NCBI GenBank assembly: GCA_947643165.1
Contig: CANRVB010000006.1
Location: 1 to 64,000 of the forward strand
Length of the DNA: 64,000 nt
Direction of reading: 5' to 3'
Source: an uncultured Porphyromonadaceae bacterium
GTDB lineage: Bacteria; Bacteroidota; Bacteroidia; Bacteroidales; Muribaculaceae
Each line of letters begins with the position of its first letter. Position 1 is the stretch's first letter. The position numbers and the translations under genes are program-made. Below the pieces are notes generated by a model, which worked only from the letters and a program-made list of their open reading frames with translations, made no database searches and had not been told where the DNA came from. Shown one piece after another: positions 1,210 to 36,220 of this stretch.

Positions 1210-3207
1210 TGTAAGCTCACGAAAATACCCTGTCAACTGGTGATTGAGGCCGTCCGTTGTAATGTCGGCCTCAATTTTTTCACACACATAACGTTTATTC
1301 CTGATGACGAATATGTCTGAAGTATCAGGAATTCTATCAGATATAAATTTGATGCACAATCGTACCGGTGTATTTATCATAATCCCGGATTTAGTTTTTG
1401 AATATAAATTTGTCTGTCCTTTAACCTCTGACAGAGACAGCGACAACGGCTCGTTCACAGTCTCCTTCGCGCCACCGATAAGCCATAATTTCTCTTCTGT
1501 AGTAAACCCCATCGGCATTTGTACAGTGACCGGGCCTTTGTTTATCCCATTTTGTACCGCTCGGTAGTGCGTTGATACGTTCTGCGGTGTCGCTTTTGCC
1601 AATGCAATGTAAACCAGATCTTCCTGGCTTGATTCCTCTTCCGCTTCTTCCTCCCCGTTTATCATATTCTCGATTGAGTATGTCCCGGTTTCAAGTGTTC
1701 CAAAACCGAGTGACACCACGTCTCCTCGATCAGGCCGCTGAAATATCTTGATCTCCGGATTATCTGTCTCAACGTATGGCGTCCCTCGTAATGATGCCAT
1801 GGTGTGCCCTCCGTCCTGCTGCGTAAAGTGGAGGGTATCAGTTGTCATCGGGCATGGAACGAATTTCAACTCTATATCGATGTCATCAGTACCGTTTACT
1901 ATGCGGTTTCTGAACTGATTTACCTCTCCAAGTATCGCACCTCGTTTATCCTCGCTTAAAAACTTGACATACTGCCGCCCGTCTTCACAGTCCCATATTG
2001 TATCAGCAGGAAAGTTTGACTCATTCGCCGTTGGCATCCTTCCGGATATATCGTCGAGTGAGGCATATCCGGCGTCCGTTTTTGCAACACTCAGGATATC
2101 CTCTGATAATTTCTTCCGTGGTTCTGCTTCATGGTCCGCAAACCCTACATTATTCGCCGTGACATCGACAATAGTATCATCATCAATCTCTACAGAGTAT
2201 TCATCCACTATCTGATTGAGGTATGTTGTTTTGGCTGTCGCGCCATAGTAATTAGCCTGCGACTTTATGGCCATGCTTTTGTGCTCTTCATCAATGATGA
2301 TAAGCACACCAAAAGCATTTTTGAGATTCTCGAAAAACTCGTTAAGCGTCCAGTGCGGTAAGCAATCGCTTATGGCCATATGAGTCGCCACGTTCACAAT
2401 AAAGATCCGGCGTAAAAAACTGTCAGCCCAAAACACATTGTCATCTTTATCCAGTGTGTAGCCAGTCGCACCTGCTATCCACTGCGTTATAGCCCACAGA
2501 TAAGGCTGCGGCGCAAAGTATAGCCATGGTTCCCCCAGTTCAGCCGGCATTGAAGTCCGTTGAGTATGCAGCTGAATCCGGAATTTGCCGCTTCCCTCTG
2601 CAGTTTCACGCATTATGTATTGGTTACATAGTACTCCTGACGTCGTATTATATACCGGATATGCCACAAACGGCCAATCCTCTCTACCGAAGCACATCAT
2701 TTCTGCTGTAGCCTGTTGGCTGTCCGTCAACTGATAGTCGATATCAGTTGAACCGTATCCCGGTATCAACAGATTCTTCCATATATAGCCGCCGAGTATA
2801 GCTGTTGTCGCGGCAGCCATGGTTATACCCATTGCTGCCGCCCAATTTCCCATGTTCAGTTTGTCAATGTAGATCTTTTCGCGTGATGATTTATAATTGT
2901 AAGCAGCTGTCCCGCCGAGCAACTGGATCTTAACGCTGTCTTGATCTATCGACGTGATCACCGCCGATCCGATCAGCACAGTTATATTATCGACATATAA
3001 TCTCGCCGTGAATTCTTCCTGCTGCTTTTTTACATCCATACGCGTTAATTCTCCGAATATTTTCTTATTCTGAGCTATTGACAACGGTAGTTCAACCTCA
3101 TACGTGTATGAGGTTGAAGATGAAAAATATGGATTTTCGGTTGTGAGCTTGATTGACGTCCCCGCTTTGGGTACGGCTTGTTTCCCGTTGAGTAATAAAT
3201 ATATCAT
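1204..3207 (-). CDS. Phage tail-tip/baseplate-like structural protein
   Basis: A 667-residue protein directly downstream of the tape measure gene and overlapping it by 4 bases, the usual place for distal-tail or tail-hub proteins of long-tailed phages. The first 120 residues form a beta-rich domain that begins with a short hydrophobic strand (MIYLLLNGK), followed by a segment rich in aromatic residues. A run of acidic residues (EEEAEEESSQED) near residue 540 separates a C-terminal beta-rich domain. I see no catalytic motif. Assignment rests on position and size; it could equally be a fibre-anchoring protein. Confidence 0.6.
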   Translation of the reverse strand: MIYLLLNGKQAVPKAGTSIKLTTENPYFSSSTSYTYEVELPLSIAQNKKIFGELTRMDVKKQQEEFTARLYVDNITVLIGSAVITSIDQDSVKIQLLGGTAAYNYKSSREKIYIDKLNMGNWAAAMGITMAAATTAILGGYIWKNLLIPGYGSTDIDYQLTDSQQATAEMMCFGREDWPFVAYPVYNTTSGVLCNQYIMRETAEGSGKFRIQLHTQRTSMPAELGEPWLYFAPQPYLWAITQWIAGATGYTLDKDDNVFWADSFLRRIFIVNVATHMAISDCLPHWTLNEFFENLKNAFGVLIIIDEEHKSMAIKSQANYYGATAKTTYLNQIVDEYSVEIDDDTIVDVTANNVGFADHEAEPRKKLSEDILSVAKTDAGYASLDDISGRMPTANESNFPADTIWDCEDGRQYVKFLSEDKRGAILGEVNQFRNRIVNGTDDIDIELKFVPCPMTTDTLHFTQQDGGHTMASLRGTPYVETDNPEIKIFQRPDRGDVVSLGFGTLETGTYSIENMINGEEEAEEESSQEDLVYIALAKATPQNVSTHYRAVQNGINKGPVTVQMPMGFTTEEKLWLIGGAKETVNEPLSLSLSEVKGQTNLYSKTKSGIMINTPVRLCIKFISDRIPDTSDIFVIRNKRYVCEKIEADITTDGLNHQLTGYFRELTL

Positions 3208-6200
3208 AGCTTCGGATTATTTGTTAGTTTCTGATACCTTTTCCACTTGCTTACAAACCCATCCTCGCCGTCCATTATCATTTTGGCCTCGATTCCTCCT
3301 TCAAGGATCTCGATCAGCCTCTCGATAACCTGTCTTGACGCAACCATGTCCGTCATGACGGCGACATCCCCGGATACAGCCTCCCCGGCTGCTCCTGGTC
3401 CTTTATGTACAGATACATCGTTCACTCCGAGAACTCGAGAGACATCCGCTCGTGATAGCGAACCTATTGTATTCGTTCGTTGCGCATGATCGATCAGATC
3501 CAGGATCGGTGAAAGTACCGGACTTGCGACGGCTTCGTGATTAGCCACAAATTCGTTCGCATGGACAACTCCCACTTCCCGGTGATTGTCCCGGTCTCGT
3601 TTAGTATAACCGCCGGAATAATAGCCTGCTGCTTCCGCTTCATGCTGCTTCTTGATTGTCGCTATCTGCACCATGCCTGCCGCTGTGGCCATCGCTGCAG
3701 CAATCGGGCCGAGAAGCCAGTTTACTTTTGACGCAGAGGCATACGCATTTATCGCCGCTACTGCTGTCTGAGCGTAAGCCTGCGCCAGTTCAAGCTTCAT
3801 CTCCTTCTCATTGTATTTCTGTTTGACCTTGGCCACTGCAGCTTCTTTCTGCGCCTCGAGTTCTTCCTTCTTCTTGGTGTTGTTTTTTGCCGCAGAGATC
3901 TGCCGGTCATAGCTTTTTTCTACCTGAGCGACTTCCAGATCCCTTTGTGCCGCCGCATAACCTGTATACTGTGATAACATACCTCCGATCACTGCGTAAG
4001 CTGATGTAGCAGCTTCGGCGAGTCGATCCCAAAAATCAGTGCTTTTAGTGTCAAGATCATTAAAAAATCTATCCCATGAAGTCCACAGATTCAGGATGAG
4101 ATCTGCATACTCCGAGTCTGTTTTCCTTACTCGTTCGATGTCTTCATTCTGATGCTTCCGTTTCAGTTCTGATACAGCGACCTGATATTCCTCTTCTGAT
4201 ATCAGTTTCTTTTTAAGCAGATCGTCAAGCACGGCTATCTCCATTTTCTCCCGGCGGGATCCTGAAGCATTCCTATACTGCTGTTCAAAGCTTTCTATGG
4301 CTTGCGCCGTCTCTTTCTGCTTATTGAGTTGATCAGCTGCTAATTTTTCTCTGATCTCCCTCTCTATCTCAGCCCGTTCCTTAGATCCTTCGTTATAGAG
4401 ATCAGCCTTCTTCTTGAGATAATCTATATCCTCCTCCAGGAGTGCCTGGTTAAGCCATTTCTCATTTTGATAAGTGTCACTATCAATATCAAAATATCGA
4501 GAATTAATCCCCCGTGTATTGTCCTTATGGGATATCTCAATATCCCTCAGTGATAGTGCCTGTTGCTCCTTGGTGTGGTTCTGAAGCATTGTAGCCTTCT
4601 GCTTGAGTGCTTGACCATATGCGGCGATATCCAATTTATTATGTTTCTCGTGGATATCCAGGACATCGTTGTTGTATTGCTCCTCGAGAGCTTCTTTCGC
4701 GGCTAAATACTCTTCATAATCCTTTTGCCCGGTAACATAGAGCGTGAGGTTTTCAGCTTCAGCCTGCAGATACATCGACTTCCGCTCCTCAAGGTCTTTT
4801 TTCAGTGCCTCTTTTGCCTCTCTCAGGGCTGCCTTTTCTGCTCGCGCTTGAGCCTTCAACTCCTTATCTGACGGACCGATGACAGGTTTCTCATTGGTGG
4901 TCTCCTCTTCGTTTGTGCCTATCACTGTCCGGTGTATCTTGTCGCCATAGACATTGAGAATTGCCTGTTCTTCCTCCTCTAATTTCTCAATTTGTTTCTC
5001 AAGTTCCACGATTTTAGATTTCGTTTCTGTCAGCGCGCGGTCAATCGTGTTAAAGCCACCAGTGGCTATACCTCCTGTGGCTCCGAGATAGACATTTCCA
5101 GTCCTATCTTCTTTGATGTCTTTGTAGCGTTCTTTCAATGGTTCTAATTCAGGTATGATCTTAGATTTTTTATTGCCAATTTCCTGAAGTCTTTCCTGAG
5201 CACCCATTACCTCATACATCTTTACAAGCTTATTGATGTATTCTTCGGCCGCTGTTGAATTTGCTTCGAGCTTACCTGTCGTCTCATCCAAATGCCCGTT
5301 GTAGTCGGGTATTATTTTGTTCAACTTCTCAATAGCTTTTCTTCTCTCCTCAAGAGTGAGATTCTCATTTTTTGCCGCTGCAATCAACAATTCGATTTCA
5401 GTTTTCTCCTTCACTACTTTCTGTTGAGCGTCGTTCCGTATATCGTTGATTACCTTTGTCTTCTTCGCCGTCTCGGCCTCCGCTGTAGCCAAGTCGATAA
5501 GAGCTCCGGCAAGCAGACTAACGACAGCGAGAACTGCTCCCAACGGGTGATTCATGAACACCCGGAAGCAACTTATAGCTGAGGCTCTCACCTTGTTAAG
5601 CCAAAATACTTTTAGCTGATCCTTGATGATTGACAGATTAAGAGCTGTTGTGTATACGATTATCGCTGCCGTCAGTAATGCTATGCTTGTCTTATGCTGC
5701 AAGAAGAATCCTACCAGTAGGTTCATCACGCGCATTAACATGCTCGTTCCTGAAATGCAGTACCTCATTGCCGGAAGAAGCTTCTCTCCAAGAGATACCG
5801 CCATTTCTGTAAATCCTTTCTTCGCTTTATCAAGTTGAGCCTGTACGGTGTTGTTCTGCACCTCAAATTCCCGGTCAATCGAAAGACCTTCCGCAAAAGC
5901 TTCGTTGGCCGCGTCGACTTGACTCTTCAGCTCGTCCACATGGCCAGCCAATGCGCTCAACACTGCTGTAGCTCTTGCACCATCGGTCCCCATATCTTCG
6001 AGAATTTTAGCAAGGCTTTCCATTCCACCGAATTTGCTCATCTGCTCAAAGAGCATGATCAAAGCCTCGTTCATATCTCGCTTCACTGTGTCAGTGAATT
6101 CCTTTACGTCCAATCCGACAGCTTTAGCTATCTTATCCGGGCCTTTGTATATCGTCGTGATAAGATTACCGATCGCGGTGCTTGAAGCCTCTAACTCAAG

Positions 6201-7184
6201 ATTTTGGGTATCTATCACCGCGCCCAAAGCCATCACCTCTGTTACAGTCATATGTGACTGATTAGCTATACCTCCGAGTCTCGATGTAAACTCTGTTATA
6301 AAAGGAGCTGCTGCCGAGCAATTTTGCGATAGCTCGTTGATAACTGATCCGACTTTAAGCAATGATTTCTCTGTGCCATATATCTTTTCATCGCCGAAGA
6401 TACCTGTAAGTTTTGACAGCGTAAGTGTCGCTCCGCTTCCGAGATCATCGAGAGCCACATTGATTTTATCTGCGGCCTTCACATAGCCCAAAACATCTTC
6501 TTCAGTGGTCTTGCCGAGACGGCCAGCCTCTTGAGCCATTTTGTTTAACTCCTCGCGCGCCGTCCTGGTGTCCATAGCCTTAAACTCATTATTAAGACTC
6601 TTAACCTGCTCCTCCGTCATCCCTGTAAACTTACGGACATTAGCCTCTTCCGCTTCCATATCCGCATAGGCTTTTACTGCTGACTTCCCCGCGATCACAA
6701 TTCCCGCGAGACTCGCTGTCGCTCCCGCGATCATCCCACTCCAGTCATTAAAAAAGTTTTTGGCCTTTTCTAATCTGCTCGTATTGTTGACCGCCATTTC
6801 AGCATTGACCTCTTTCAATGCTGCTTTTACCTGTCTGAGTTTTTCAGTGTACTGCTGCCATTCCTCAGACCCTCTCTGCACTCTCCCGGAATTAAGCTCT
6901 TTATTTATAGCTTTTATAGCCGCTTGCAGTTGCTTCGGCGTTGCTGTATCAGTCCTTTCCAGAGCCGCGCGAAGATTATTAACCTGTAGCTCTGTGTTTT
7001 TGATAGATCTATTTACACTGTTAATCTCAGCATTGAGCTTTCTGACAGCGTCTTTATCGTTGACCTTATTAGCTTGCTCGAATTTTTGCCTTAGTGCTTC
7101 GGCCTTCGATTTGAGCTGCTCGAGCTTTGCCTCTGCCTCTTTAGAGTTTACAATCAGATTAACTTCCGCGTTGTTCTGTGCCAT
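3204..7184 (-). CDS. Phage tail tape measure protein
   Basis: A 1,326-residue protein that sets tail length and is threaded through the tail tube. Residues 1-130 are a coiled coil (repeated EAKLEQLKSKAEALRQK-type heptads). A TP901-type core follows with the family's pattern around ADMEAEEANVRKFTG and the ALGAVIDTQNLE region. Two strongly hydrophobic segments lie near residues 485-540 (MRVMNLLVGFFLQ; TSIALLTAAIIVYTTALN). The second half is again long charged coiled coil (residues 590-1,150), then an Ala/Gly-rich hydrophobic patch (LLGPIAAAMATAAGMVQIAT). The gene has its own promoter (7,203-7,232) and follows a strong terminator. At 1,326 codons the tail would be long (siphovirus-like); I saw no sheath gene, so non-contractile is inferred. 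Confidence 0.92.
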   Translation of the reverse strand: MAQNNAEVNLIVNSKEAEAKLEQLKSKAEALRQKFEQANKVNDKDAVRKLNAEINSVNRSIKNTELQVNNLRAALERTDTATPKQLQAAIKAINKELNSGRVQRGSEEWQQYTEKLRQVKAALKEVNAEMAVNNTSRLEKAKNFFNDWSGMIAGATASLAGIVIAGKSAVKAYADMEAEEANVRKFTGMTEEQVKSLNNEFKAMDTRTAREELNKMAQEAGRLGKTTEEDVLGYVKAADKINVALDDLGSGATLTLSKLTGIFGDEKIYGTEKSLLKVGSVINELSQNCSAAAPFITEFTSRLGGIANQSHMTVTEVMALGAVIDTQNLELEASSTAIGNLITTIYKGPDKIAKAVGLDVKEFTDTVKRDMNEALIMLFEQMSKFGGMESLAKILEDMGTDGARATAVLSALAGHVDELKSQVDAANEAFAEGLSIDREFEVQNNTVQAQLDKAKKGFTEMAVSLGEKLLPAMRYCISGTSMLMRVMNLLVGFFLQHKTSIALLTAAIIVYTTALNLSIIKDQLKVFWLNKVRASAISCFRVFMNHPLGAVLAVVSLLAGALIDLATAEAETAKKTKVINDIRNDAQQKVVKEKTEIELLIAAAKNENLTLEERRKAIEKLNKIIPDYNGHLDETTGKLEANSTAAEEYINKLVKMYEVMGAQERLQEIGNKKSKIIPELEPLKERYKDIKEDRTGNVYLGATGGIATGGFNTIDRALTETKSKIVELEKQIEKLEEEEQAILNVYGDKIHRTVIGTNEEETTNEKPVIGPSDKELKAQARAEKAALREAKEALKKDLEERKSMYLQAEAENLTLYVTGQKDYEEYLAAKEALEEQYNNDVLDIHEKHNKLDIAAYGQALKQKATMLQNHTKEQQALSLRDIEISHKDNTRGINSRYFDIDSDTYQNEKWLNQALLEEDIDYLKKKADLYNEGSKERAEIEREIREKLAADQLNKQKETAQAIESFEQQYRNASGSRREKMEIAVLDDLLKKKLISEEEYQVAVSELKRKHQNEDIERVRKTDSEYADLILNLWTSWDRFFNDLDTKSTDFWDRLAEAATSAYAVIGGMLSQYTGYAAAQRDLEVAQVEKSYDRQISAAKNNTKKKEELEAQKEAAVAKVKQKYNEKEMKLELAQAYAQTAVAAINAYASASKVNWLLGPIAAAMATAAGMVQIATIKKQHEAEAAGYYSGGYTKRDRDNHREVGVVHANEFVANHEAVASPVLSPILDLIDHAQRTNTIGSLSRADVSRVLGVNDVSVHKGPGAAGEAVSGDVAVMTDMVASRQVIERLIEILEGGIEAKMIMDGEDGFVSKWKRYQKLTNNPKL

Positions 7185-23992: not shown

Positions 23993-24025
23993 AGATAGTC
24001 ATATATAGCGTTAACGTGTTGATGG

Positions 24026-24346
24026 TCACTCCATTTCTCTCAGCTGATGGGGGGGGGTCGATTTCCCTGACACCCTGCGCATCATCCACCTCCAGGTGTG
24101 TTCGTAGTCCGTCAGCTCATAGCCGAGCTTGATCATTGTCAGCGATACCACGTCGTCAGGCACAAACGACACCGGCTCAAGCTCACGGATTATATCCTGG
24201 GAATCCATGTCGTCATCGCCCGGCACTGCCGACGGACGGAAGCTCTTCATCATTGTGGCCACGATAGCAGCCTCACGGTCCAGGCCGTGTACAGCCGGTT
24301 CGGTCCGGATCTCCTCGATAATGTTGAGATACTCCTGATCAGTCAT
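24026..24346 (-). CDS. Small phage protein with C9 tract near its end
   Basis: A 106-residue acidic protein of unknown function with a Shine-Dalgarno (AAAGGAGGTGAG) before its ATG, which overlaps the stop of a 30-codon upstream frame. A run of nine C in the coding strand (24,049-24,057) encodes STPPHQLREME at the end; a one-base change would truncate or replace the last 6-10 residues. No recognised domain. Confidence 0.55.
   Translation of the reverse strand: MTDQEYLNIIEEIRTEPAVHGLDREAAIVATMMKSFRPSAVPGDDDMDSQDIIRELEPVSFVPDDVVSLTMIKLGYELTDYEHTWRWMMRRVSGKSTPPHQLREME
24049..24057 (-). repeat. G9/C9 homopolymer in the 3' end of a phage gene
   Basis: Nine G on plus (C9 coding) located within the last ten codons of the 24,026 gene. 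The same length class as the three fibre tracts. Confidence 0.8.
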
Positions 24347-24431
24347 GGCTCACCTCCTTTCCGGCTACATGGTTAACTACCGACAGCATCAGGCTGCAGC
24401 CCGGCGCATGGATTGATGTTGATGGTTTCAT
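24339..24431 (-). CDS. 30-residue frame behind structured element 1
   Basis: A short frame (MKPSTSIHAPGCSLMLSVV...) beginning 6 nt after segment c of element 1 and ending at a TGA that overlaps the ATG of the 24,026 gene, with a Shine-Dalgarno inside its 3' end. The position is that of a leader peptide or translational coupler. Whether the peptide itself matters is unknown. Confidence 0.35.
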   Translation of the reverse strand: MKPSTSIHAPGCSLMLSVVNHVAGKEVSHD

Positions 24432-24662
24432 TGTTTTGGTCTTTAGCAAGGTAGACAGAAAAACGGCTACCGATCCGTTGCTAAAGACCATGATGCTATC
24501 TCTTTCGAGCGCAAATGTCCGGATGGTAGCCGTAAGGCTATGTAATGCCGGGGCGCAGTATTGGCCACGACAGGTTGAGCGTTGTTCGAGCTCGTGCGAG
24601 ATAGACATACTATCATGATCTTTAGCGCCACAAATGTAGTCTAAATTCTGTAATCCACCAAA
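24429..24662 (-). ncRNA. Structured leader RNA element 1 (promoter + switch-like leader)
   Basis: Minus strand. Promoter TTTG (24,659-24,662), 20 bases, TACATTTG (24,631-24,638). Segment a at 24,612-24,626, b at 24,480-24,494, c at 24,438-24,449. a:b pairs over 15 bp with one G-U; b:c pairs over 12 bp with no wobble. A second pair of alternatives: CGGCTACC-type strand at 24,520-24,533 with 24,463-24,477, or the GGTAG part of the latter with CTACC just before c. Segment c ends 6 nt before ATG 24,431-24,429. The second-stem bases covary with element 2 (A-T versus T-A). Confidence 0.7.
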
Positions 24663-24689
24663 TTTATTTGACGGAGTTGTTGAAAGTTT

Positions 24690-24920
24690 CATTGTTTTTG
24701 GGGTTAGCATGGTAGACAAAAAAGCGGCTACCGTTCCGCTGCTAACCCCATTGAGTCTGCTCCGAAGAGTACACGTAAGGACGGAAGGTAGCCGTGTGGC
24801 TATAACATGGACATGTGACATGCCCTGAGCTACTGCGAGCGTTAACCGCGCTCTGCGGTGCAGACTAACTGCAATGAGGTTAGCGCCACAAATGTAGTCT
24901 AAATTCTGTAATCCGCCAAA
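24690..24920 (-). ncRNA. Structured leader RNA element 2
   Basis: Minus strand. Promoter TTTG (24,917-24,920), 20 bases, TACATTTG (24,889-24,896). Segment a 24,872-24,884 (GCTAACCTCATTG) pairs with b 24,741-24,753 with one G-U; b pairs perfectly with c 24,700-24,709 (TGCTAACCCC). The second stem uses 24,782-24,794 with 24,725-24,738. c ends 7 nt before an ATG at 24,692-24,690. It lies in tandem with element 1 and shares the promoter region nearly base for base. Confidence 0.7.
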
Positions 24921-24958
24921 TTTATTTGACGGATTCATCTGAGCTATGGCCATACTGT

Positions 24959-25354
24959 TCATACCGCACCTCCTTTCTCCTGCTTCATCAGGTCGCGCAC
25001 AGTCTGATCCTCGATCAGGCTATAAAACGTGTAAGACACCTGGCTGCGGTTCATGAATCCTTCCTTGACCCGACGTACGGTCATATCGAAGACAAAATTG
25101 TCGTTGTACGGCGACGCTGGCTTAACGATGATCCATCCTTTATACAGATCTGCATCGAGCTTCAGCGGCTTGCCCTTGCTTGTCTCGTTGAGAGCGGCCA
25201 CAAGGTCAGCAAACTTCTTGACCAGTAGCTTCAGCTCAAGATCGCTCGGCAGAAGCACGTTCTCAAACTCCTGGGCTACCTTCTGCAGCAATGCCCCGCG
25301 CTTGGTCTTGCCCTGCACGGAATAGGTTGTCACCTTCGATACAAAGTATTTCAT
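24959..25354 (-). CDS. Small phage accessory protein, unknown function
   Basis: A 131-residue basic protein (MKYFVSKVTTYSVQGKTKRG...) with no recognised domain. It has a strong Shine-Dalgarno (AAGGAGGTGAGG) and overlaps the upstream small membrane protein by 4 bases. Its own 3' end contains AAAGGAGGTG right before an overlapping ATG (24,962), the start of a long frame running through elements 1 and 2. Confidence 0.55.
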   Translation of the reverse strand: MKYFVSKVTTYSVQGKTKRGALLQKVAQEFENVLLPSDLELKLLVKKFADLVAALNETSKGKPLKLDADLYKGWIIVKPASPYNDNFVFDMTVRRVKEGFMNRSQVSYTFYSLIEDQTVRDLMKQEKGGAV

Positions 25355-25602
25355 AAGGCCTCACCTCCTTCCTTGATAGCGCGGGCGCCCCATACGATAG
25401 CCCACGGCATGAGCACTGCCGCCATCAGGCCGATGGTCGGCTCCGACACGCCTGCGGCCTGGCCGAAAAATATGCCTATGGCCACGGCTATCAGCATAGC
25501 CATTGAGAACTGGCGGCCAAACATGGCTGCTGTTATCCTGCTCAGGATCCCGGCATTTGTCCTGCGGCTCCGGGTTGCCGCGATTGTCAATGAATTGTTC
25601 AT
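25351..25602 (-). CDS. Small membrane protein behind structured element 3
   Basis: An 83-residue protein, start MNNSLTIAATRSRR (25,602) chosen because it lies 2 nt after segment c of element 3, the same arrangement as in elements 1 and 2; an upstream ATG at 25,620 would sit inside the helix. Two hydrophobic segments (MAMLIAVAIGIFFGQAAG; IGLMAAVLMPWAIVWGA) suggest two membrane passes. Function unknown; superinfection exclusion is a possibility for phage membrane proteins of this size. Confidence 0.5.
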   Translation of the reverse strand: MNNSLTIAATRSRRTNAGILSRITAAMFGRQFSMAMLIAVAIGIFFGQAAGVSEPTIGLMAAVLMPWAIVWGARAIKEGGEAL

Positions 25603-25834
25603 TGGTTGATGAGTTAGCAAGGTAGACAGAAAAAACGGCTACCGATCCGTTGCTAACTCATCAACGCAGTTCCGGGGAACGCATAATGACGGATGGTAGC
25701 CGCAATGGGCTATATAAAGTCAGGGCATAAAAAAAGCCCGTCAAAGTATGTCGAGCAGTAACCGCGCCCGCCGGGACAACATTACGTTGACAAGTTAGCA
25801 CTGCAAAGGTACTCCAAATTTTAGAACCTGCAAA
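25600..25834 (-). ncRNA. Structured leader RNA element 3
   Basis: Minus strand. Promoter TTTG (25,831-25,834), 19 bases, TACCTTTG (25,804-25,811). Segment a 25,786-25,800 pairs with b 25,651-25,665 over 15 bp with two G-U wobbles; b pairs perfectly over 16 bp with c 25,605-25,620. Second stem 25,690-25,702 with 25,636-25,649. The helix sequences differ from elements 1 and 2 but all pairings are kept. The T run between the GGTAG and CTACC arms is one base longer than in element 1, so no reading frame is conserved. Confidence 0.7.
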
Positions 25835-25851
25835 TATTTTCGGATGATTTT

Positions 25852-26523
25852 TTATTCAAAAAGCAACTGCTCGAGCTTCTCCTTCACACACTCCGGAGTT
25901 GCCTGGCACCAATAAGGCTCGAGGCTATCCGACTTGACTATGTAGCTGCCGGCCGGCGTAACCATGGCCACATTGCCGTTAAGCACCTCGTCGAGCGGGA
26001 ATATATACAGGCGATAAGGATCTGTCGGTATGCCCGCTTCGCCCAGCATGACGAACACCGGCAGCCCGGTGTTTCGCTCCACCTCCCGGTAACGTTCCGC
26101 CTGGGCCTTGCGGATCACAAGATTGTTGGCCACGCTGCGATACTTGCACTCTATCCAGTAGTTCACCTTGACACGCCCCTTGCGGTGTACCACCTCAAGA
26201 TCCGGCATAAGCGAGCGCTCATCGAGCGATTGCGACATACCCATCTTATTGTCAGCACTGCGTGAGCCAACCGTCAGCCCTTCTGCCGCGCACAGCAGAT
26301 CTATGGCCACGTTCTCAAACTCTATGCCCTTGATCAGGTTGGCGCTCACCTTCACAGCCTTTGTCTCGACCAGTGCCGACAGCCGGCGCAGTTCCGCCAG
26401 ATAGTCCTCACATTCTATGTGGGCCTGATCGGCATATTCGCGGATCACGGCCTCTTCCTCCTCCGACAGAAGGCCGTCGGCTATGGCCACTTGCCCCAGC
26501 CATTTCAACGTATTGTAATCCAT
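25852..26523 (-). CDS. TerB-like/PD-(D/E)XK nuclease-like accessory protein
   Basis: A 223-residue protein starting at MDYNTLKWLGQVAIA (26,523); the first in-frame ATG at 26,553 overlaps the -7 box. The N-terminal 50 residues resemble TerB-like helical bundles (LGQVAIADGLLSEEEEAVI). The rest fits a PD-(D/E)XK nuclease: GIEFENVAIDLLCA, then MPDLEVVHRKGRVKVNYWIECKYRS, where Asp and the E-x-K pair are the candidate metal ligands. It neighbours ardA, so a role in phage-host or phage-phage conflict is plausible. No experimental basis is visible. Confidence 0.5.
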   Translation of the reverse strand: MDYNTLKWLGQVAIADGLLSEEEEAVIREYADQAHIECEDYLAELRRLSALVETKAVKVSANLIKGIEFENVAIDLLCAAEGLTVGSRSADNKMGMSQSLDERSLMPDLEVVHRKGRVKVNYWIECKYRSVANNLVIRKAQAERYREVERNTGLPVFVMLGEAGIPTDPYRLYIFPLDEVLNGNVAMVTPAGSYIVKSDSLEPYWCQATPECVKEKLEQLLFE

Positions 26524-26550
26524 ATAATCATATATCATTGATTTGATATA

Positions 26551-26558
26551 CAAATATA
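26551..26558 (-). promoter_or_regulatory. Candidate -7 promoter box
   Basis: TATATTTG on the minus strand, about 28 bases before the start of the nuclease-like gene, without a good -33 TTTG. Downstream of the ardA terminator-like hairpin, so the gene probably has its own promoter. Confidence 0.4.
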
Positions 26559-26609: not shown

Positions 26610-27209
26610 TCAATAGTTGCTGAACACATATCCACCGCAGAATGTATAGTCGCACATGAACAGATCGCGGGCAAAAGCCGAGTAGTCGAAGTAGCAAGCG
26701 AGATTGCCCATCTTCTCCAGATCGTAGCACTGGTCAACAATTTCCCGGGCATAGTCCTCTTCGCTGTCATAAGCGCCCTGATATCGATCTTCAAAATCCT
26801 CCAGCTCGAAACCGCAGTCAATATATTCTGTGACAGCCTCACGTGAGTAGCGTTCGCAGAGGTCAGCGTAGGCCTGGATCTTATCGAAGGTCTCGCGGTC
26901 CATGCACGACTCCGAGTAATATTCGCGGGGGAAATACTCGAAGTCCTGGAACATCAGCTCCGGATCCGACTCGTCGCTGTGGACAGCCTTGCAGAAGTCG
27001 ATGAAGTCATCGTAGTCGGCGAAGGTAGTCAGGTCGATCCAAAGGCCGTTGATCGAACCGTTGTTAGTCCCGCAGTATACAGCCGGATTTTCGTTATTGT
27101 AGTCCGCTTCGTGGATCTTGATGGCGTCGAGCAGAGAGTCAACTGTGTAAGAAAGCTCGTTGAGACGGTTGATTGAAGTAGCTGTGATTGAAGTTTCCAA
27201 GGTCTGCAT
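26610..27209 (-). CDS. ardA: ArdA-family anti-restriction protein
   Basis: A 199-residue acidic DNA-mimic protein that protects incoming DNA from type I restriction. The start MQTLETSITATSINRL (27,209) is chosen over an upstream ATG because the upstream residues are basic and unlike the family. The body is very acidic (DFIDFCKAVHSDESDPELMFQDFE) and the C-terminus has the family ending YFDYSAFARDLF ... GGYVFSNY. ArdA is frequent on mobile elements. It is likely expressed early or in the lysogen; a 1.3 kb leader region precedes it. Confidence 0.85.
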   Translation of the reverse strand: MQTLETSITATSINRLNELSYTVDSLLDAIKIHEADYNNENPAVYCGTNNGSINGLWIDLTTFADYDDFIDFCKAVHSDESDPELMFQDFEYFPREYYSESCMDRETFDKIQAYADLCERYSREAVTEYIDCGFELEDFEDRYQGAYDSEEDYAREIVDQCYDLEKMGNLACYFDYSAFARDLFMCDYTFCGGYVFSNY

Positions 27210-27380
27210 AGTAGTAAAGTTTAGTGGGTTAAGATTTGATTGTGTAAAGAGATTGTCCCTTTTACACTGCCCGAAAAGTGCCGGCATGAGGCGAAAGCAA
27301 GGGTAGACGCAAAATTTACTACCCGCAGGGTGGAGAAATTTTGAGGCTATTCACATAGCCCTTGAGTGCCGTTGACGGCT

Positions 27381-28627: not shown

Positions 28628-30256
28628 TCAAAAAGCCGACGTGACGCTGACCATCGTATTAGAACGCGGCTGCGATTCGCAACCTATACATAGAGTGTCA
28701 AAAGCGTCCGAACCGTCGGTACGGTTCTCCAGACGGTTCTCCTCGCTCTCGGCCAACTTCTCGCCGCGTTTGTCCTTGCCACCGTTGTAGATACCCGCTG
28801 TCTGTATCGACAGCAGCAGATCCTCGTTGTTCTCCCGGTTGATCATAGGCTTGAGCTTTGCCTGCCCTGCGAACATACGGTTGATCAGCAGATGTTTCAT
28901 GATCTGCTTCATCGGATTGCCGAGATCCACCTCAGTCACAAACCAACCATGAAAGCGGAACGCATTGGTGATCACGGTCTGAAACGTCACACCGTCGACA
29001 GCATAGCTACCCTGCTTGGCTGTCGCGTCAAAATAGAATATAACCCTCCGGTTGTGGTGGAAACGGTAGTACTTGCAGAAATCATCTACAAGTTCCTTCA
29101 GCTTGCGCTCATACTTGACAAAGAACGACTTCAGGACCAGCAGACGGTTGCCACGCGGTTGCCCGCATACAAGCCAGTTGATATTGGCATTGTAGTCGAA
29201 AGCGATACACAGTGGCAGGCCAGGATCGACATCCGAGTCCATGAGGCTGCACGGCTCCTTGAGCTTGTCGAAGTCATACTCAAGAGAATCGAGATGGCTG
29301 AAGTTGGTAGCGCTGTACTTGTGGGCCTCGGTCATCGACGAATAGAAGCCATCGCGGGCTATACCAATGCGCTTGCACAGTACAGAAGTCTGAAACGTCA
29401 ACGGAGGCAAGTCACGCTTAAGCTGCCGGATGAACGGCTCGCCGAGTACCTGAAGATTGTCGATCGTCGACACCTCCCGGTAGTCAACGGCTATCGAGCG
29501 GAGGCGGCACATGTCGCGGTGAAGCGATCTGAGCTGCCCCTTCAGATAGTCGGGAACAACCACTCCATGCTTCCTCAGCTCCTGAATACGACGCTCAATA
29601 TGGTTGATTTCAGCCATAAGCGCCCGGATAATGTCGATAACTTCCGGATCGCATTTCTTGTCGTAGTCCAGGAACCATGATCCCTTCTTCGTCACCGGCA
29701 TGTCTGAGCTGATCAGCATGGAGTGATGATAGAAATGCTTGCCGAAATACATCCTGTTGCCGCGGTTAGCCGGGAGCGTCTCGTCTTTGAACTGCTCGAA
29801 GTCGATGAACTTAGCTTCGTCGACATCGAGAGCGTCATACGACTGCGAGTTGGAGGTTCCGGAGCGATCCTGACTGATTATGTAGCCTACGCTGCCATTG
29901 CAGAACGACAGCACATTCTCGTAGTTTTGGACAGGGAAAATCGGTTCCTTCCATCCCCAGGCCTTCGGAGGCTTTATACCGATAGCCCAGAACACATTGC
30001 GCTTCAACCCCCAGTTCTCCCAATGAACAAGCATCGACGGCAATGTGTTGGTCAGAGCGCGTTTGATATTGGCCGATACAAAACCGGTGATCGAGCCCGG
30101 CATGCGTGTGAAATTTCGGTAGTTCCAGAGCGCATGCACCATGCCTTTGCCGAACGCGCGTCCGGCCACAAGCACAGTGTCCTTCGCCTGGACGACCGTC
30201 ATCAGATCGCGCTGCACATCGTTAAGATATACCGGCTTGATTTTCGGAGCTTCCAT
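28628..30256 (-). CDS. Phage terminase large subunit
   Basis: A 542-residue DNA-packaging motor: ATPase plus headful/cos nuclease. The N-terminal Walker A is VLVAGRAFGKGM (residues about 29-40), an R-x-x-G-K-G variant. The C-terminal nuclease region has CIAFDYNANINWLVCG (about 350) and IFYFDATAKQGSYA (about 407), whose Asp residues are candidates for the RNase H-like metal site. Its start overlaps the upstream small protein by 35 bases. An intrinsic terminator follows, which separates packaging genes from the accessory and portal genes. Confidence 0.88.
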   Translation of the reverse strand: MEAPKIKPVYLNDVQRDLMTVVQAKDTVLVAGRAFGKGMVHALWNYRNFTRMPGSITGFVSANIKRALTNTLPSMLVHWENWGLKRNVFWAIGIKPPKAWGWKEPIFPVQNYENVLSFCNGSVGYIISQDRSGTSNSQSYDALDVDEAKFIDFEQFKDETLPANRGNRMYFGKHFYHHSMLISSDMPVTKKGSWFLDYDKKCDPEVIDIIRALMAEINHIERRIQELRKHGVVVPDYLKGQLRSLHRDMCRLRSIAVDYREVSTIDNLQVLGEPFIRQLKRDLPPLTFQTSVLCKRIGIARDGFYSSMTEAHKYSATNFSHLDSLEYDFDKLKEPCSLMDSDVDPGLPLCIAFDYNANINWLVCGQPRGNRLLVLKSFFVKYERKLKELVDDFCKYYRFHHNRRVIFYFDATAKQGSYAVDGVTFQTVITNAFRFHGWFVTEVDLGNPMKQIMKHLLINRMFAGQAKLKPMINRENNEDLLLSIQTAGIYNGGKDKRGEKLAESEENRLENRTDGSDAFDTLCIGCESQPRSNTMVSVTSAF

Positions 30257-36190: not shown

Positions 36191-36220
36191 CAAAGATAGC
36201 AATTATCAACTGCATTTAAA
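36191..36220 (-). promoter_or_regulatory. Promoter upstream of 35,688 gene
   Basis: Minus strand: TTTA (36,217-36,220), 18 bases, TATCTTTG (36,191-36,198). It lacks the GTCTTTTTG extension of the late promoters, so it may be used at another time. Confidence 0.6.

Follow-up and report, generated by a model that had tools for sequence, protein, structure and literature searches.

The C4 antisense RNA of phages P1 and P7 is a phage leader in which short segments are complementary to flanking targets, and it controls an antirepressor gene in Proteobacteria. HK022 put is a cis-acting structured RNA at the start of a phage operon that acts in antitermination through short twin hairpins; it is not known to have an alternation of three strands or a coupling to a start codon. 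The ZTP riboswitch contains a pseudoknot aptamer, and the middle sequence of the P4 CI RNA is named seqB. The available part of PMC4825925 describes the P4 CI RNA leader as having a middle sequence complementary to upstream and downstream copies, for which premature termination of the operon has been proposed. In the same text, Gifsy-1 IsrK is described as having one promoter, a partly read-through terminator and two alternative leader folds, with a small ORF, the stop of which overlaps the following start, and with the start of the first ORF hidden in one fold (PMC4825925). In strand-displacement riboswitches such as ZTP an early fold is displaced by a later strand during transcription, according to the available text of PMC10085676.

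The leader RNA analyzed here is likened to these systems by its layout; kinship with the P4 CI RNA or IsrK is not claimed, and the element appears to be undescribed. Its strand b can pair with strand a at the 5' end or with strand c on the start-codon side. This was recognized in 76 of 79 copies and corresponds to the P4 middle segment with complementary leader segments on both sides, and premature termination is proposed here as it is for P4. Next to b, a strand T3 pairs either with the upstream strand T5 or with the downstream strand T4. Unlike P4, there are up to four elements per contig, each ending at a start codon, and dozens of sequence variants. With IsrK, a small RNA plus readthrough mRNA, the element shares the alternative folds and a small first ORF, whereas its three interchangeable strands, the second triplet T5/T3/T4, the Bacteroidales host and the lack of an Rfam match set it apart. 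It resembles C4 in being a phage leader with complementary segments, but the C4 model RF01695 gave no covariance-model match in the window or in eight relative loci. The likeness to put is that of a structured RNA at the head of an operon, and in contrast to ZTP the rival helices are hypervariable and no Rfam aptamer matched at the elements. The 4227 families of Rfam 15 yielded no match in the window at the gathering threshold; in the eight relative loci there was none at the elements, with a tRNA and a SAM-II aptamer elsewhere. This agrees with the first-pass annotation, which could name no known family. A permissive Rfam scan of 24000-26000 returned five matches, all below the gathering score, the best with an E-value of 0.63. 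In L048 (18767-18828, minus strand) a SAM-II riboswitch scores above the gathering score, probably in flanking host DNA. Literature searches found no such element, and an unnamed earlier prediction may exist in supplementary tables; the candidate RNAs in the available parts of PMC8040213 and PMC2864571 have descriptions that do not fit it.

The window, by which we mean the whole 64-kb stretch of DNA analyzed, contains three copies of the leader RNA (e1, e2 and e3) on the minus strand of a Bacteroidales prophage, starting near 24,660, 24,920 and 25,830.

24429..24662, minus strand: e1 as a whole (promoter, leader RNA and start codon); covariance-model match 24429-24532, 113 bits
24631..24638, minus strand: e1 promoter -7 box TACATTTG, with TTTG at 24659-24662
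24612..24626, minus strand: e1 strand a, 15 bp with b, one G-U
24525..24533, minus strand: e1 strand T5, continuing with ATCCG to 24520; partner T3
24478..24494, minus strand: e1 strand b, pairing with a via 24480-24494 or with c via 24478-24490
24463..24477, minus strand: e1 strand T3 (CGGAT C GGTAGCCG T), partner T5 or T4
24459..24463, minus strand: e1 second U-tract (U2)
24450..24454, minus strand: e1 strand T4, CTACC
24437..24449, minus strand: e1 strand c, 13 bp with b, no wobble
24429..24431, minus strand: ATG of the 30-codon ORF1 behind e1
24346-24026, minus strand: gene after e1's ORF1, its start preceded by AAAGGAGGTG
24690..24920, minus strand: e2 as a whole; covariance-model match 24690-24794, 104 bits
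24872-24884, 24787-24794, 24740-24753, 24725-24732 and 24699-24709, minus strand: e2 strands a, T5, b, T3 and c, respectively
25600..25834 (region about 25595-25850), minus strand: e3 as a whole, the most canonical copy; covariance-model match 25600-25702, 106 bits
25804-25811, 25783-25800 and 25695-25703, minus strand: e3 -7 box, a and T5, respectively
25650-25668, 25635-25643 and 25605-25620, minus strand: e3 strands b, T3 and c, respectively

All three copies follow one layout of TTTG, 19-20 nt, TAnnTTTG, a, hairpins, T5, b, T3, a T-run, T4, c and ATG, with strand a beginning 11-12 nt past the start of the -7 box. The TTTG/TAnnTTTG pattern is taken to be the Bacteroidetes promoter consensus; as the first-pass annotation had claimed, it precedes both e1 and e2 (TTTG-N20-TACATTTG), and the third copy of that annotation is e3, with a spacing of N19. 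Every leader part that had been claimed for e1 and e2 was found, read on the minus strand, as were the predicted a:b helices of 15 bp (e1) and 13 bp (e2), each with one G-U, and both members of the second pair of alternatives, CGGCTACC:GGTAGCCG and GGTAG:CTACC. The b:c helix is indeed free of wobble, but it measures 13 and 11 bp instead of 12 and 10, a length that depends on counting the closing A-U pairs. Likewise, c ends just before an ATG, but the gap is 5 nt in e1 and 6 nt in e2 rather than 6-7 nt. ATGs are present behind both elements as described, but the one behind e2 opens a 117-codon frame through e1 and therefore probably does not start a gene. Because this frame merely runs through e1, e2 and e1 look like a tandem duplication. 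In the alignment, e1 and e2 lack the first T-run, which is kept by e3 and most relatives.

The gene order on the minus strand is e3, an 83-aa ORF, a 131-aa gene, e2, e1, the 30-codon ORF and more phage genes. The surrounding prophage genes are:

25351..25602, minus strand: ORF1 behind e3, 83 aa, apparently with two membrane helices (by eye)
24959..25354, minus strand: 131-aa MKYFV protein, second gene behind e3; its cluster occurs also in L056, and L004 has a similar start
3204-7184, minus strand: tape-measure-type gene; its cluster holds a PHROG tape-measure match in L060
20990-22375, minus strand: portal-like gene, weak PHROG match
25852-26553, minus strand: protein with a TerB-like N-terminus (sub-threshold Pfam match) and a nuclease-type-looking domain (by eye), between the ArdA gene and e3
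26610-27287, minus strand: ArdA-type antirestriction protein, upstream of e3 (Pfam E-value 2.4e-26)
28628-30256, minus strand: 542-aa protein; its cluster holds a terminase match in L056
37232-40459, minus strand: DnaG-type primase

Neither the MKYFV protein nor the 76-aa C-terminal part of e3's ORF1 had a match in Pfam or PHROG. Two other operon starts of this phage, near 36200 and 7190, were seen by eye to have plain promoters and no element, so the element is not obligatory. Strong AGGAGG Shine-Dalgarno sites, which are unusual for Bacteroidetes, occur on genes within phage operons, in the window at 24346, 24962 and 25354, and in the relatives. The ORF1 behind each of the three window switches is without a Shine-Dalgarno site.

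The covariance-model search that the first-pass annotation had proposed recovered relatives far above chance. With model R1, built from five copies, 52 of 397 sampled genomes of the host family carried copies, the window's own included. In the order sample R1 matched in 4 of 393 genomes and model R2, built from 83 hits, in 7 of 393, each time including the window's own, and among the 296 genomes of the phylum sample R2 matched the window's own alone; these genome searches applied strict filters and may miss weak copies. Two to four copies were present in 15 of the 52 genomes, and in 11 of the 15 these share one contig and strand at distances of 0.3 to 40 kb. An exact pattern scan of genome contigs gave three places, namely the true relatives L003 and L004, and L005 (Mesonia), which was rejected because it looks like a chance match with the other element parts absent. 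L003 is labeled Porphyromonadaceae, and the Clostridiales label of L004 looks like a binning error. The exact pattern scan of IMG/VR gave nothing; additional copies were found on IMG/VR contigs. A BLAST search of e3 against phage records had no match, and one with a relative retrieved a single human faecal phage record, MT836146, which the covariance model confirmed. The 83 hits were reduced to 80 by removal of one L003 duplicate and of two weak hits opposite the strand of other hits. L038 (27 bits, with neither promoter nor a strand) was left out of later counts, and L018, L024 and L040, in which a:b or b:c is not recognizable, were excluded from the a:b/b:c comparisons, leaving 76 of 79 copies. 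Separately, four units of element plus 88-aa ORF were seen on one contig (L048 at 3875, 8820 and 9634, and L047 at 6021), with near-identical proteins and four different sets of a/b/c sequences; they represent repeated cassette duplication with change of the a/b/c barcode.

In the alignment of the 76 copies the 5' part consists of GCAGTGC, a, a hairpin P2 with a TTAGT-like loop, CCG, S1, a CGGTTA-like loop, S2 and S3, and the 3' part of a T-run, S4, T5, a hairpin, b, T3, a T-run, T4, c and ATG. A loose pattern located a -7-like box in 75 of 80 copies. The T-run behind S3 has at least five T in seven positions in 72 of 76 copies, and in the second U-tract T accounts for 91-100% at positions 2-5, position 1 being T by construction. 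TTTT lies within 8 nt behind T3 in 75 of 79 copies, an adjacency that is partly by construction, as the search for T3 covered the sequence preceding the first T-run. T5:T3 forms an uninterrupted helix with a median of 14 bp (range 7-17). Thus, as in an attenuator, a G+C-rich helix (T5:T3) stands directly before a U-run and has a mutually exclusive, covarying alternative (T3:T4). The best ATG is located between -6 and +7 nt from the end of c in all 79 copies, which places an alternative helix beside or over the initiation codon in each of them. A frame of at least 50 codons follows this ATG in 74 of 79 copies (six running off the contig), and 58 of 79 have a GGAGG-, GAGGT- or AGGAG-like site plus another ATG at the end of ORF1. 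From these positions, ORF1 directly follows the switch and often bears the ribosome site of the next gene. ORF1 itself varies, with apparent two-membrane-helix proteins, a 62-aa group and others, and six representatives of ORF1 or the next gene had no Pfam match. By a strict criterion, the terminator of a preceding operon lies just upstream of the element in merely 4 of 79 copies.

Covariation was assessed by comparing the complementarity of each strand to its own partner and to swapped partners, with 55 dereplicated copies of the 76 and 2000 permutations. None of the 2000 permutations reached the own-partner excess of a:b (z 35), b:c (z 36), T5:T3 (z 11) or T3:T4 (z 6.3); excesses were also found for P2 (z 19), S1 with the later hairpin strand (z 8.4), S1:S2 (z 6.0), the 3' strand of P2 with the b region (z 5.8) and S3:S4 (z 5.7), and weakly for S2:S3 (z 2.7) and the small hairpin T0:T5 (z 1.5, 138 of 2000 permutations), the smaller z values calling for caution because pairing had been used as a guide in placing the c, T3 and T4 windows and because the statistics are uncorrected for phylogeny. 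The unexpected pairings that served as controls gave z values of -0.6 (a:c), 0.8 (a:T3) and -1.9 (S2 with the later hairpin). A pairing of the CGGTTA loop with the start of ORF1 was weak, the observed value being reached by 38 of 2000 permutations, with a perfect 9 bp in L003. In an alignment of 81 distinct sequences that was fitted to the structure, 92.9% of the b:c/T3:T4 cells were paired and the covariation score was 0.554, compared with 0.018-0.056 after sliding by 1-3 columns; paired cells made up 99.2% in the 8-pair core of b:c and just 48.7% at one modeled pair. Hence the proposal that pairing is kept while the helix bases differ holds on the larger alignment, and it does so for both rival folds. 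As judged by comparison of the copies, the RNA family in front of these prophage genes is real, and selection maintains two folds in it that exclude each other.

The mismatches carry a strand signature. Among the non-Watson-Crick cells of 73 deduplicated copies, G-U outnumbered A-C by 97 to 5 in a:b and by 26 to 2 in b:c (56:3 and 14:2 with symmetric G-U/A-C scoring). Twelve IMG/VR elements, eight with new b strands and four repeating a b strand of the first set, were checked later and gave 21:0 for a:b and 3:0 for b:c (11 of the 12, the twelfth lacking upstream sequence). This excess argues that selection acts on RNA of this strand. It also makes it barely credible that the element works at the DNA level, as an invertible or single-stranded hairpin site: a and c are direct repeats and b is an inverted repeat, as such a site could have, but read on the transcribed strand the mismatches are G-U with hardly any A-C (97:5), and the promoter pattern, T-runs and ATG hold fixed positions. 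The claim that a:b is the weaker helix was supported, since it has more non-Watson-Crick cells than b:c in 49 of the 73 copies, fewer in 2 and equal numbers in 22 (34, 2 and 37 with symmetric scoring). A weaker first helix and a cleaner later one fit a displacement of a by c, as far as sequence can tell.

Folding models were calculated for transcripts of different length. For RNA ending just past the second T-run the median probability of a:b was 0.95 over the 76 copies, and L050 and L079 preferred T5:T3 in RNA ending at the second T-run. For RNA reaching 45 nt past c the medians were 0.95 for b:c and 0.004 for a:b; with nested folding, b:c outweighed a:b in 61 of the 76 long RNAs, and the reverse held in 15. 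The cotranscriptional switch postulated earlier is thus supported by comparison and modeling, with a:b in the short and b:c in the long RNA. Displacement of a by c is modeled in those 61 long RNAs, but not in e1 and e2 themselves, for which the full-length nested fold retains a:b as the likelier helix (0.54 and 0.87, respectively); e3 has b:c at 0.97. Since a:b and T5:T3 can exist together only as a pseudoknot, the pseudoknot was estimated by adding the T5:T3 duplex energy with an arbitrary penalty of 9 kcal/mol. By this rough estimate 72 of 76 copies favor it at the T-run, and at full length a median of 0.8 kcal/mol separates the two folds, 57 of 76 copies lying within 5 kcal/mol and 30 of 76 favoring the pseudoknot. 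As far as so rough an energy estimate goes, it describes a bistable RNA. Features that go beyond the first-pass annotation are the T-runs suggesting termination, the probable pseudoknot, the location at operon heads and the hypervariability.

On the strength of these alignments and models, each element probably heads a prophage transcription unit as its 5' leader and acts as a bistable attenuator/translation switch. Transcription would start from the host-type promoter, and a:b and T5:T3 would form first, probably as a pseudoknot. Because T5:T3 sits directly before the U-tract, some polymerases may stop there, releasing an RNA of about 200 nt. After escape of the polymerase, the emerging T4 and c would displace T5 and a by branch migration, and the b:c hairpin would cover the region before, or including, the AUG of the small first ORF and turn translation off. 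The operon would thereby be silent by default in the lysogen, and for induction some factor, be it protein, RNA or ligand, would have to keep T5 off T3 during transcription and c off b afterwards. The premature stop, the start sequestration and the relief by a factor are what we infer from position and from analogy with the P4 CI RNA and IsrK. Unlike a textbook terminator, the supposed terminator has a long loop containing b between its arms. Moreover, the upstream fold would terminate but free the AUG, and the downstream fold would do the opposite, so only one of the two actions may matter.

In the alternative of a purely translational or ligand-operated switch, the polymerase would pause at the U-tracts, and the CGGTTA loop with its surrounding hairpins would form a core to which a factor or metabolite binds, stabilizing a:b and T5:T3 and keeping the AUG open. 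The ATG adjoining c in 79 of 79 copies, the CGGTTA-like loop in 66 of 76 and the nearly equal energies of the pseudoknot and hairpin folds speak for it, but it leaves the T-runs right behind T3 (75 of 79) and S3 (72 of 76) unexplained, and the classifiable downstream genes are of phage structural type and have no metabolic theme. We regard this reading as possible but doubtful. The length of b:c, which reaches 16-25 pairs in many copies, would also suit an RNase III entry site at which the long b:c/T3:T4 hairpin is cut to give a mature mRNA beginning beside the AUG; such a site would not account for the covarying a:b and T5:T3 or for the graded weakness of a:b, and we hold it to be very unlikely.

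Under the preferred reading, a bistable switch at the head of a transcription unit, the genes behind the element would be those under control. Members of recurrent phage clusters are present within the following nine genes of the same strand in 37 of the 51 copies with long context. The first recognizable downstream block is, in 14 of these 51, the structural one with clusters C0/C12/C25/C4/C3, of which C3 has matches to profiles of tail and head; 10 copies have tape-measure and 9 have portal-side genes in this place. In contrast to P4, control of a satellite replication operon was thus not seen among these contexts, the next downstream clusters being of structural type, portal-side or tape measure in 33 of 51 and the other 18 unclassified. 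Of the latter, 11 have no such cluster in the first six same-strand genes and seven loci have none at all, several of them being short contig ends. Since most clusters lack a profile match and are called phage by synteny, the term late operon is a deduction from gene order. A protein-linked explanation was set aside, there being no gene family common to all copies. In 33 of 51 contexts the element precedes genes of structural type, portal-side genes or tape-measure genes. This position, together with the conserved core hairpins, would also be expected of a processive antitermination RNA resembling HK022 put, in which the core would modify RNA polymerase, with the b switch tuning the effect. 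Such an RNA has no need for a start codon beside c or for matched a, b and c, and we consider this quite unlikely.

Several genes upstream of the elements were noted in passing. A HicA-type toxin gene (Pfam match) lies just upstream of the element in L055 (8002-8193), and its cluster is found upstream of the elements in L057, L058, L074 and L076 too; the small gene beside it, whose relative in L064 has a helix-turn-helix domain, is probably HicB. A P22_AR_N (phage antirepressor N-terminal) gene was identified in L063 (7807-8352), the only member included in the domain scan. In L063 and L076 the gene of this cluster has a primase-type gene on one side and the element on the other, and in L080 it stands upstream of the element. 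In L003, genes that by eye appear peptidase-like and lipoprotein-like precede the element at about 1289-2148 (minus strand) and resemble a lysis cassette.

The strands a, b and c change quickly and nevertheless remain mutually matched. In 44 pairs of copies with a core identity of at least 0.8, the mean identity was 0.85 for the core, 0.94 for T3 and 0.60-0.66 for the b barcode with two anchorings, and under both anchorings barcode identity was below T3 identity in 44 of 44 pairs. The second anchoring moved 13 of 76 barcodes, a few of which, L029, L036, L053 and L065 among them, then look shifted; the conclusion was unchanged. None of 29 within-genome pairs share a barcode, the identical copies L061 and L077 on one contig having been set aside. 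At a core identity of at least 0.85, barcode identity was 0.63 within a genome (4 pairs) and 0.66 between genomes (19 pairs). As barcodes differ about equally within and between genomes, no specific within-genome avoidance is shown, and orthogonality of the barcodes within one phage was not seen beyond general fast change.

Such variability raises the alternative of a trans-acting immunity RNA resembling the P4 CI RNA. The free b strand of a terminated or processed leader would pair with a or c of other nascent leaders, so that leaders of the same specificity, in resident and incoming phages, would be silenced and the variable strands would represent immunity specificities. The a-b-c layout equals seqA-seqB-seqC of P4, as given in the available part of PMC4825925. 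Barcode identities of 0.60-0.66 against 0.94 for T3 in the 44 pairs, and 0 of 29 within-genome pairs with a shared barcode, point in the same direction. However, barcodes differ between genomes (0.66) about as much as within one (0.63), and control of a late-type rather than an early or replication operon would be unusual; on balance this reading is unlikely. Equally tentative is the suggestion of private RNA locks, in which a, b and c would form a changing three-strand barcode that insulates each switch, and a released leader would silence matching leaders only.

Documenting expression platforms by covariation is called difficult owing to their diversity, according to the available text of PMC13273304. 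The rival folds of the present element are backed by covariation and not by energy alone. Their fast-changing three-strand pairing amounts to a natural library for cotranscriptional strand displacement, and the a/b/c variants could supply orthogonal parts for Bacteroides genetics. To our knowledge, how temperate-phage operons under host-type promoters are kept quiet in gut Bacteroidales has been little studied. The element offers a concrete RNA candidate for this quieting, present in about one-eighth of the sampled genomes of one family (52 of 397), and its rival folds right before the first gene probably decide whether the gene block is read out. If the private-lock suggestion were true, it would mean sequence-specific RNA silencing and superinfection immunity in Bacteroidales phages.

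The topology of an HDV-like ribozyme was also considered for the leader and set aside, as the joining region seems too short. As the 5' leader of prophage transcription units, the element would give gut Bacteroidales phages an RNA means of holding a gene block silent in the lysogen.
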